From the NCBI GenBank assembly GCA_002069125.1, contig MVZN01000018.1:1-48205 (forward strand): a stretch of DNA of 48,205 nucleotides, read 5' to 3'. Of the stretch, positions 22,891 through 26,006 are shown one piece after another (the stretch's first letter is position 1; each line of letters opens with the position of its first letter). The notes below the pieces were generated by a model. It worked only from the letters and a program-made list of their open reading frames with translations. It was not told the origin of the DNA and made no database searches. Both the position numbers and the translations under genes were made by a program. This DNA is from Spirochaetes bacterium ADurb.BinA120. Lineage in GTDB: Bacteria > Spirochaetota > UBA4802 > UBA5368.

Positions 22891-22919
22891 TTGACTTTTC
22901 ACCTGGAAAAGAGTAAAAA
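22891..22919 (+). promoter_or_regulatory. promoter for the selenoprotein gene
   Basis: TTGACT and TAAAAA are separated by 17 nt. The predicted start is near 22926, leaving a leader of about 32 nt before the coding start. This supports separate expression of the small gene that follows. Confidence 0.55.
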
Positions 22920-22957
22920 TTCAATGGTAAAACTGCGATCAAAAGAGGGGGGATGTA

Positions 22958-23170
22958 ATGGCGCGGGTGATTATTTTTGGCAAAGCCGGTTGACCCTATA
23001 CGGAACAGGCCAGGTCGGCCTATGGGGACAGAGCTGATTATTTCGACGTTAAAAAAGATGCCGCCAGGTTGAAAGAAATGCTCGAGTTTACCGGCGGACG
23101 CAGGCAGGTGCCTGTAATCGTTGAGGACGGCAGAGTTACAGTCGGCCATGGGGGCACCTGAGGCGTGTGA
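22958..23170 (+). CDS. glutaredoxin-like selenoprotein with two selenocysteines (UXX-star type)
   Basis: Reading two in-frame TGA codons (22991-22993 and 23159-23161) as selenocysteine gives a 70-residue protein ending at TGA 23168-23170. It begins MARVIIFGKAG-U12-PYT, a glutaredoxin-like first strand with U-x-x-T in place of C-x-x-C. It continues to QVPVIV with the thioredoxin-fold cis-Pro (Pro52), then GHGGT-U68-GV and stop. The second Sec is therefore third from the C-terminus. From memory, NCBI annotators name a UXX-star (seleno)protein family with this layout. AGGGGGG lies 5 nt before the ATG, a promoter sits upstream, and each UGA is followed by a SECIS-like hairpin. A thiol/selenol redox role is expected. 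Frame-based gene calling would miss it. Confidence 0.88.
22994..23027 (+). promoter_or_regulatory. SECIS-like hairpin for Sec12
   Basis: The lower stem CCCTAT/ATGGGG starts immediately after the UGA, and the upper stem AGGCC/GGCCT closes the loop AGGUC. The loop begins 18 nt after the UGA, has G in its second position, and resembles the AGGUCU loop of E. coli fdhF. These features fit the known bacterial SECIS rules. Confidence 0.75.
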
Positions 23171-23361
23171 ACTCCGCCGTGAGCGGGGCGGTTTCCCGGA
23201 AGGGCCGGTGATTTCGTGCGGTTCATCGACAGGGCGCGATTTTTGCGCCGGATGCGGCATGACATAATGGCCCCCTGTTACAAGGACATCGATTTTTATA
23301 AAAACACAGGTGGAGAAGCCTGAAGGAAACGAAAAAGAATATGATCCAGGAGGTCTGAGGG
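23148..23361 (+). other. region with possible tiny reading frames after the selenoprotein
   Basis: A 39-codon frame starts inside the selenoprotein 3' end (23148-23267) and ends with a CAGCG cysteine pair. An 18-codon frame beginning MAPCYKD overlaps its stop as TAATG (23267-23323). Neither has a ribosome site of its own and I recognise neither. They could be coupled small genes or chance frames. The rest of the stretch leads into the ribosome site of the next gene. Confidence 0.2.
23174..23191 (+). promoter_or_regulatory. SECIS-like hairpin for Sec68
   Basis: CCGCC and GGCGG form a 5-bp stem around the loop GUGAGCGG. The loop begins 17 nt after the second UGA and starts with G. The hairpin lies beyond the true stop codon, in the 3' untranslated region. 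Confidence 0.55.
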
Positions 23362-23727
23362 ATGATTAAAATTAAACGGATGTTTGCATGGGGGATGCTT
23401 ATTGCCTTCGCGGCAGTGATGTTTCAGCCGCATGTGATGAAGGCCGTCGCCCAGCCATATGAAATAGAGGGCGAATATTCGGCGACCGGAACAAACCCGG
23501 ACGGCTCACCTTATATCGGAGTTGTAATCATACGAAAGGATGGCGATATGTATCGCTTCCACTGGAAGGTGGGAACAGAATATTACGGGCACGGGACGCT
23601 CAAGGATAACATATTGACTGTATTCTGGGGAGCACCGGACCCGGTCATCTATACCGTAAAGGACGGCGGTAAAACGCTGGATGGAGTATGGGCCGGGGGG
23701 CTAGGCAGGGAAACGCTCCGCCGATAG
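23362..23727 (+). CDS. small secreted protein
   Basis: This 121-residue protein has a classic signal peptide: MIKIKR, a hydrophobic core to about residue 21, and a signal-peptidase site AVA before Gln31. The mature part of about 90 residues is strand-rich with repeated Gly, Tyr and Trp. It includes EGEYSATGTNPDGSPYIGVV, a pattern like small periplasmic beta-sandwich proteins, and HWKVGTEYYGHG. I know no function. CCAGGAGG lies just upstream of the start. It ends 77 bp before a strong terminator hairpin. Confidence 0.75.
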   Translation: MIKIKRMFAWGMLIAFAAVMFQPHVMKAVAQPYEIEGEYSATGTNPDGSPYIGVVIIRKDGDMYRFHWKVGTEYYGHGTLKDNILTVFWGAPDPVIYTVKDGGKTLDGVWAGGLGRETLRR

Positions 23728-24146: not shown

Positions 24147-26006
24147 ATGAGCTTGATAGTCGATGCGAGGGACCAGGAATTCTGTCTTTACGAAATGCTC
24201 AACATCCAGGAGCTGTTCGGCACAGCCCGCTACGGAGAGCATTCCAAGGAGATGTTCGACATGGCGCTCGAACTCTCCCGAAAGATCACCGAGGAGGAAA
24301 TGCTTCCGTTCTATGCCGAGGGGGACAGGGTGGGGGCCAAACTGGAAAATGGCAATGTCAGCGTGCCGGAGTGTTATAAAAAAATTCACCGGCTGATGAA
24401 CGACGCGGGGCTTTTTACCATGGCCGTTTCGCCGGAGGCCGGAGGTCAGGGCTTTCCATACGTTATCGACCTCGCGGCGCGAGAGTACTATGTGTTCAAC
24501 ATGGGCTTTCTGCTCTATCCGGAGGCATCGGTCGGGGCCGCCCATCTTATAGAGGTCTTCGGAACGGAAGAGCAGAAGCGGAAATATATGATGAAGATGT
24601 ACGAGGGGAAATGGGGCGGCACAATGGTCCTAACGGAGGCCGACGCCGGTTCGGATGTCGGTAACCTCAAGGCGAAGGCCGTGCGAATGCCGGACGGAAC
24701 TTATCGGATTACCGGCTCCAAGATATTCATCTCCGGCGGCGATTCCGATCTATTCGAAAACATTGTACACCCGGTGCTCGCCCGCATAGAGGGCGACCCA
24801 TCCGGAACGCCCGGAATCTCCATATTCCTCGTTCCCAAGTATCTGGTAAACGATGACGGGAGCCCCGGCAGGCGCAATGACTACAGCATCACAGGAATCG
24901 AGCACAAGATGGGCCTTAAGGGCAGCGCAACCTGCTCCATGAGCTTCGGCGACAATGGAGACTGCTACGCTGAACTCCTGGGAGAGGAACGCAAGGGCAT
25001 GAGAATCATGTTTCAGATGATGAACGAGGCCCGCATAGGCATGGGGCTCCAGGGGATGGGAACGGCGTCAATAGCCTACCTTCACGCGCTGAACTACGCG
25101 AAGGAAAGGCTTCAGGGAGCCGATCTCATGAACATGCAAAACCCCGAGGCCCCAAGGGTGCCGATAATAAGCCATCCGGACGTTCGTCGCATGCTGCTAT
25201 GGATGAAGGCCCATGTCGAAGGGATGCGCGCGCTGGTGTACCTTTGCGCCCTGGCGATCGACAGGAAGGAGGCCATGGAGGGCGAAGAGGCGGCGCGCTG
25301 GCACGGCATAATGGAGTTACTGGTTCCCATCACCAAGGCCTATTGCACCGATATGGGGTTCCGCGTCACCGAGCTCGCCATACAGGTTTACGGGGGCTAC
25401 GGCTACTGCCAGGACTATCCGGTCGAGCAGTTCATGCGCGACCTCAAGATTGCCTCATTGTACGAGGGGACAAACGGCATCCAGGCGCTCGACCTTGTCG
25501 GCCGCAAGATGACGCAGAACAAGGGCGCGAACTTTATGAATTTTCTCGTCGAGATGAACAAGACCGTCGCCCGCTACAAGGACAGGCCGGGACTTGCGGA
25601 CATCTCCAGGGACGTCCAGGACGCAATCAATACGCTCGCCGATATGGGTATGTTCTTCGCCCGGTGCGGCAAGGAGGGTAAATTCCTCGTTCCGATCTCC
25701 AACGCGTATCCATTCCTCAACCTGATGGGGACGATCTGTCTTGCCTGGCTACTCTTCTGGCAGGCCGGAATCGCTGAGGAGAAACTGGAGGCAATCCTTG
25801 CGAAAAACGGTGTGGGCGCCGCTGACAAAAAGAGGGTGAATGAGTTCCTCCGCGAGCACCGCGACGGGGCCTTCTATCATGGGAAAATCATGACCGCGCG
25901 CTATTACGTAAAGCATGTCCTCCCGCAGGCTTCGGCGATAGCCAGATCGATCAAGAGTGAAGACCTCACGTGTCTCGAAATGCTCGACGAGAGCTTCGCC
26001 TTTTAG
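24147..26006 (+). CDS. long-form acyl-CoA dehydrogenase
   Basis: At 619 residues this is longer than the usual 380-400 residue enzyme. It fits the class with an N-terminal extension (about 1-75) and a C-terminal helical domain from about 460. It oxidises acyl-CoA to 2-enoyl-CoA with FAD and passes electrons to ETF. LTEADAGSDVG at 162-172 and the ISGGD segment at 195-199 are the substrate/FAD region, and IQVYGGYGY precedes catalytic Glu440 in LYEGTNGIQ. The enzyme should feed enoyl-CoA to crotonases such as that at 7291. Start follows AGAGGGTATC. A strong terminator follows. Confidence 0.92.
   Translation: MSLIVDARDQEFCLYEMLNIQELFGTARYGEHSKEMFDMALELSRKITEEEMLPFYAEGDRVGAKLENGNVSVPECYKKIHRLMNDAGLFTMAVSPEAGGQGFPYVIDLAAREYYVFNMGFLLYPEASVGAAHLIEVFGTEEQKRKYMMKMYEGKWGGTMVLTEADAGSDVGNLKAKAVRMPDGTYRITGSKIFISGGDSDLFENIVHPVLARIEGDPSGTPGISIFLVPKYLVNDDGSPGRRNDYSITGIEHKMGLKGSATCSMSFGDNGDCYAELLGEERKGMRIMFQMMNEARIGMGLQGMGTASIAYLHALNYAKERLQGADLMNMQNPEAPRVPIISHPDVRRMLLWMKAHVEGMRALVYLCALAIDRKEAMEGEEAARWHGIMELLVPITKAYCTDMGFRVTELAIQVYGGYGYCQDYPVEQFMRDLKIASLYEGTNGIQALDLVGRKMTQNKGANFMNFLVEMNKTVARYKDRPGLADISRDVQDAINTLADMGMFFARCGKEGKFLVPISNAYPFLNLMGTICLAWLLFWQAGIAEEKLEAILAKNGVGAADKKRVNEFLREHRDGAFYHGKIMTARYYVKHVLPQASAIARSIKSEDLTCLEMLDESFAF

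Follow-up and report, generated by a model that had tools for sequence, protein, structure and literature searches.

A hidden UXX-star family 1 gene with two putative selenocysteine codons in a Spirochaetota genome

Background

A 2026 review lists the family modelled by NF041114 as 'Distant Grx-like protein 1 (UXX-star selenoprotein family 1)', with a UxxT motif and two selenocysteine (Sec) residues, an entry that cites a 2008 ocean metagenome study (PMC13188914). The double-Sec layout is therefore already known. On function, the review goes no further than naming metals or unknown substrates as possible ligands of the Sec in this group of proteins (PMC13188914). The first-pass annotation of the DNA studied here had described the UXX-star family as one with little functional description. 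NF041212 (Uxx-star family glutaredoxin-like (seleno)protein) is the parent subfamily of the present protein, and its name also admits members without Sec. In classical glutaredoxins (Grx) the motif is CxxC/UxxC or CxxS and the C-terminal helix is complete, whereas the present protein has UxxT, no Cys, and a second Sec, and lacks the last helix.

The gene described here lies on contig 18 of a Spirochaetota draft genome (3.5 Mb, 96% complete); the whole stretch of 48,205 nt that was analyzed is referred to as the window.

Results

Gene and reading frame

We identified a frame on the forward strand of the window that runs through two in-frame UGA codons and ends at a third, with the following features:

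22945-22952 (+), ribosome-binding site GAGGGGGG, purine-rich, with the ATG 5 nt downstream
22958-23170 (+), UXX-star family 1 double selenoprotein gene, 70 residues, UGA stop included at the 3' end
22991-22993 (+), UGA codon 12, predicted Sec of the active site U-P-Y-T
23159-23161 (+), UGA codon 68, predicted Sec of the tail GGTUGV
23168-23170 (+), UGA stop, the third in-frame UGA, three codons past Sec68

With TGA read as U, the translation is MARVIIFGKAGUPYTEQARSAYGDRADYFDVKKDAARLKEMLEFTGGRRQVPVIVEDGRVTVGHGGTUGV. The first-pass annotation had proposed a coherent glutaredoxin-like frame through UGA12 and UGA68, with a U-x-x-T active site, a C-terminal GGT-U-G-V, and a ribosome site, and its coordinates and residues proved correct on all these points; GGAGG-like sequences occupy the position equivalent to the ribosome site in relatives. 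The promoter that it had also claimed is not established, being a weak 9/12 match at 22891-22920, with 3 matches found on both strands vs 0.7 expected. Because no ORF of at least 60 residues is listed in this frame under the standard code, normal gene callers miss the gene, as had been anticipated, and the only longer ORFs overlapping it are on the opposite strand.

The median dN/dS in the stretch between the two UGAs was ~0.15 among ten Spirochaetota sequences, a rough value drawn from 32 usable pairs with saturated synonymous sites. A reassigned genetic code was ruled out because UGA is the ordinary stop of 15 of the 29 genes in the window. A non-exhaustive reading by eye of the intergenic gaps, with UGA taken as Sec, gave no other convincing selenoprotein in the window.

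Family membership and selenocysteine machinery

The translation was searched with hmmscan against NCBIfam and fell into the family that had been proposed: NF041114 matched above its cutoff of 72 with 110.3 bits (E 3.8e-32) over positions 1-70 of 70, and NF041212 matched with 80.7 bits (cutoff 66). UXX-star families 2 (NF041211) and 3 (NF047338) and the HUGP/GUXX-star fusion (NF045501) gave 40.9, 51.2, and 43.5 bits, far below their cutoffs of 100, 97, and 325, with homology to the present protein detectable over its whole length. Pfam Glutaredoxin (PF00462) scored 33.2 bits, above the gathering cutoff of 22.9, and classical glutaredoxin 3 (TIGR02181) 25.3 bits, below the equivalog cutoff of 90. 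The likeness to NF041114 comprises the end-to-end model match, the N-terminal UxxT with a Sec codon (U12-P-Y-T15, with a covarying SECIS), a second Sec (U68, the review listing 2), and the length of ~70 residues. We found no family-defining difference, and the present copy sits in a Spirochaetota genome. The gene is a further member of the catalogued UXX-star family 1, not a new class.

The genes selB, selA, tRNA-Sec (selC), and selD, for which the first-pass annotation had suggested looking in the same genome, were all identified over cutoff, clustered within 4 kb on contig 5. The selD gene has an in-frame UGA near its N-terminus and is itself Sec-containing. We identified tRNA-Sec in all 10 relatives with the gene or its remnant and also in ~16 of 20 relatives without it, and its presence was rejected as a discriminator of gene carriers.

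Conservation of the two UGA codons

An above-cutoff match was found in ten of 393 Spirochaetota genomes, including that of the window, and all ten have exactly two in-frame TGA codons. Together with the NF041114 E value, this confirms that the frame is far beyond chance. Scanning of GTDB genomes gave 129 relatives, of which 80 were kept, and counts of 81 refer to these homologues plus the window. The homologues belong to Thermodesulfobacteriota, other former deltaproteobacteria, Nitrospirota, Acidobacteriota, Spirochaetota, and a Pelotomaculum. At codon 12, UGA stands in all but two of the 81 sequences (79), the exceptions being TGC (L097) and TAA (L096), and at codon 68 in all but one (80), the exception being TGG (L100, near a contig end); both are thus kept in 78 or more of the 81 sequences across phyla. 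Cys is wholly absent from 72 of the 80 homologues, the usual resolving Cys being replaced by Thr. In a tree of the 81 sequences, Spirochaetota did not form one group; support was weak, and the alignment is too short for resolving transfer.

The first-pass annotation had also suggested looking for Cys in homologues at both positions. This was borne out at site 12 in a single Bacillota sequence (L097 5022-5024, TGC) and failed at site 68, where Sec is retained in that sequence too; the homologues include no Cys/Cys form of family 1, only this Cys12/Sec68 one. Homologues retain Sec at both sites and the genome has selA, selB, selC, and selD, the reverse on both counts of what had been named as counter-evidence (homologues with neither Cys nor Sec at these positions, or a genome with no selB/selC).

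Several variants were observed alongside the common form. TAA stands at the first Sec site in L096 (5028-5030), and TGG at the second in L100 (near 209), with the contig end close by. A divergent second two-UGA paralogue (UPFS ... GYGGSUTV) was identified in a Nitrospirota genome (L146, G396:C55:23470-23664, -), where site 12 of the other UXX-star 1 copy is TAA. Another genome harbors both a UXX-star 1 copy and a one-UGA selenoprotein glutaredoxin with UPYC (L143, G394:C35:8983-9177, -). Seven homologues, mostly of Nitrospirota (L087, L089, L103, L109, L116, L127, and L136), have an additional Cys before the tail (GCGGTUGV), a third possible chalcogen. Further, a broken copy at about 8950-9100 of L060 (G097:C83 about 25400-25545) has the N-terminal piece ILIFGKNG fused to the C-terminal half in a different frame, without UGA12 and hairpin 1, through natural deletion or misassembly.

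SECIS hairpins

Two SECIS-like hairpins had been claimed, and both were identified:

23007-23021 (+), SECIS hairpin 1, AGGCC / loop AGGUC / GGCCU, 5 bp, loop beginning 18 nt past UGA12
23172-23188 (+), SECIS hairpin 2, CUCCGC / loop CGUGA / GCGGGG, 6 bp, loop beginning 16 nt past UGA68

Both satisfy the published bacterial SECIS model, with a G within the first two loop positions (here the second) and a spacing inside the range quoted as 16-37 nt (PMC13188914). In isolation they fold with -8.2 (hairpin 1) and -9.1 kcal/mol (hairpin 2). The evidence for them is comparative, from covariation, because single-sequence folding of the longer hairpin stretches was not significant (z -0.68 and +0.67) and Rfam gave no match anywhere in the window. 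Across ten genomes, hairpin 1 has 98% of cells paired, and the pair at columns 30-42, the one pair with changes on both sides, is double-changed in 3 of 10 genomes, the sequence being constrained by coding. Hairpin 2 is 96.6% paired, 4 of its 6 pairs are double-changed, and its covariation is 0.65 vs 0.22 in shuffled alignments; its pairing and covariation were matched by 0 of 500 shuffles and by no slid register. A strong SECIS-like hairpin was found after 58 of 79 UGA12 and 67 of 78 UGA68 codons, vs only 26 of 219 UGA codons that serve neighbouring ORFs as ordinary stops.

It is exceedingly improbable that the locus encodes no selenoprotein and is instead a glutaredoxin gene in decay or a frame that spans two stops by chance. 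The visibly broken copy in one relative (G097) and the non-significant single-sequence folds fit such a reading, but the frame is under purifying selection, the hairpins covary, and the Sec machinery is present; the same two UGAs across 80 homologues from several phyla already refute it. UGA12 and UGA68 are almost certainly read as Sec in a 70-residue glutaredoxin-like protein, as judged from these sequence comparisons.

Sec and stop codons at the tail

Hairpin 2 lies wholly 3' of the stop codon, in the 3' untranslated region, and UGA68 would be decoded via a SECIS located beyond the stop. Codon 71 is UGA in 39, UAA in 26, and UAG in 12 of 79 sequences, and the sequence beyond it has no conservation; because the three stops interchange and nothing beyond is conserved, codon 71 is a stop even as UGA. 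From UGA71 to the loop of hairpin 2 there are ~7 nt, under the quoted range, and this distance would be too short for Sec insertion, so that UGA71 terminates. Two UGAs nine bases apart precede one 3' untranslated hairpin in 39 of the 79 sequences. We put forward, at slightly less than even chances, the combined proposal that distance to the hairpin alone sets UGA68 as Sec and UGA71 as stop and that Sec68 and Sec12 together make up an obligate diselenide redox centre of a cysteine-free protein.

Predicted fold and the role of the two Sec

AlphaFold2, run with 27 homologues and with Sec modelled as Cys, gave a strand-helix-strand-helix-strand-strand model of glutaredoxin topology (pLDDT 89.4), in which the chain stops where the last glutaredoxin helix would start. 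The best Foldseek matches in the PDB are glutaredoxins, including GSSG-bound Clostridium oremlandii cGrx2 and the E. coli Grx3-glutathione complex; the fold in common with cGrx, a selenoprotein glutaredoxin of C. oremlandii, and with E. coli Grx3 was found with probability 1.00 and TM ~0.74. Sec12 is predicted to sit where glutaredoxins have their nucleophile, at the N-terminus of helix 1, and Sec68 on a short Gly-Gly tail. Lys9, Val51-Pro52, and Gly65-Gly66 are invariant in the 10 Spirochaetota sequences and are the counterparts of residues with which glutaredoxins hold glutathione; the first-pass annotation had already named cis-Pro52.

Since Thr15 replaces the resolving Cys and no other Cys is present, Sec68 is the sole possible internal partner of Sec12, and we accordingly favour a Sec12-Sec68 redox couple. 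We consider it probable, with considerable room for doubt, that UXX-star selenoprotein 1 is a minimal redox protein of glutaredoxin fold in which Sec12 and Sec68, its only two chalcogen residues, work as a pair. Sec12 would attack the substrate (a disulfide, peroxide, or organo-chalcogen adduct), and Sec68 would substitute for the CxxC resolving Cys or for glutathione, resolving the adduct into an intramolecular diselenide, to be recycled by a cellular reductase. We infer an internal Se-Se or Se-S pair, as the first-pass annotation did, aided by the co-conservation of both Sec and the lack of Cys in most homologues. The Gly-Gly-Thr-Sec-Gly-Val tail may lack the flexibility or the reach to meet Sec12, which counts against the pair, as do the metal-binding role suggested by the review (PMC13188914) and the lack of a conserved neighbour that would point to a substrate.

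The same features of the fold bear on a monothiol-type glutaredoxin dependent on glutathione or a low-molecular thiol, in which Sec12 alone would be catalytic and Sec68 would only position or tune the substrate. UxxT lacks the second active-site Cys, the Grx residues are invariant, and GSH- or GSSG-bound glutaredoxins are among the top fold matches, as this reading would have it; the last helix of glutaredoxins, which contributes to the GSH site, is nevertheless absent, and Sec68 is conserved as strongly as Sec12, which would be costly for a non-catalytic residue. We regard such a role for this selenoprotein as very unlikely.

Gene neighbourhood

The gene is solitary in the window, with divergent trkA-trkH on one side and an ORF without Pfam match, followed by an acyl-CoA dehydrogenase, on the other. 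The downstream ORF (23362-23727, +) encodes 121 residues, is secreted-looking, and has no Pfam match. Clustering of the neighbours of 80 loci identified no general partner gene and no conserved neighbour pointing to a substrate. In Syntrophales-like genomes, a cNMP-binding-domain protein was found on the same strand ~50-65 nt upstream in eight loci, a distance measured to the first Sec codon, and a rubrerythrin-domain protein directly downstream on the same strand in six loci. With the gene they form a small lineage-specific operon (L111 4484-5717, also L067, L112, L113, L119, L130, L135, and L084, Syntrophales-like), a context that hints at oxidative-stress or redox regulation in the Syntrophales-like group only.

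The main rival to the redox pair is that the two selenolates of the same selenoprotein bind a soft metal or metalloid (Hg, Cd, Cu, As) at a single site, making it a carrier or detoxification protein and not a redox enzyme. Two selenolates without Cys would suit such a site, the review allows that UXX-star Sec may be metal ligands (PMC13188914), and the weaker fold matches include ArsD, an arsenic metallochaperone whose fold is related. Against this, no recurrent neighbour ties the 80 loci to metals, as far as clustered and not individually annotated neighbours tell, and the protein retains K9, cis-Pro52, and the active-site helix of glutaredoxins, as redox glutaredoxins do. We rate the metal site as rather unlikely.

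Discussion

The family to which the gene belongs was already catalogued, and the points of interest are the Sec pair and the arrangement of Sec and stop UGAs at the tail. The gene escapes ordinary gene callers and yet is kept in bacteria of several phyla. It offers a simple model for a cysteine-free two-Sec redox centre, and another for the discrimination of Sec from stop by one hairpin past the stop codon; in the tail arrangement, nature provides a test of how Sec-UGA and stop-UGA are told apart in bacteria.
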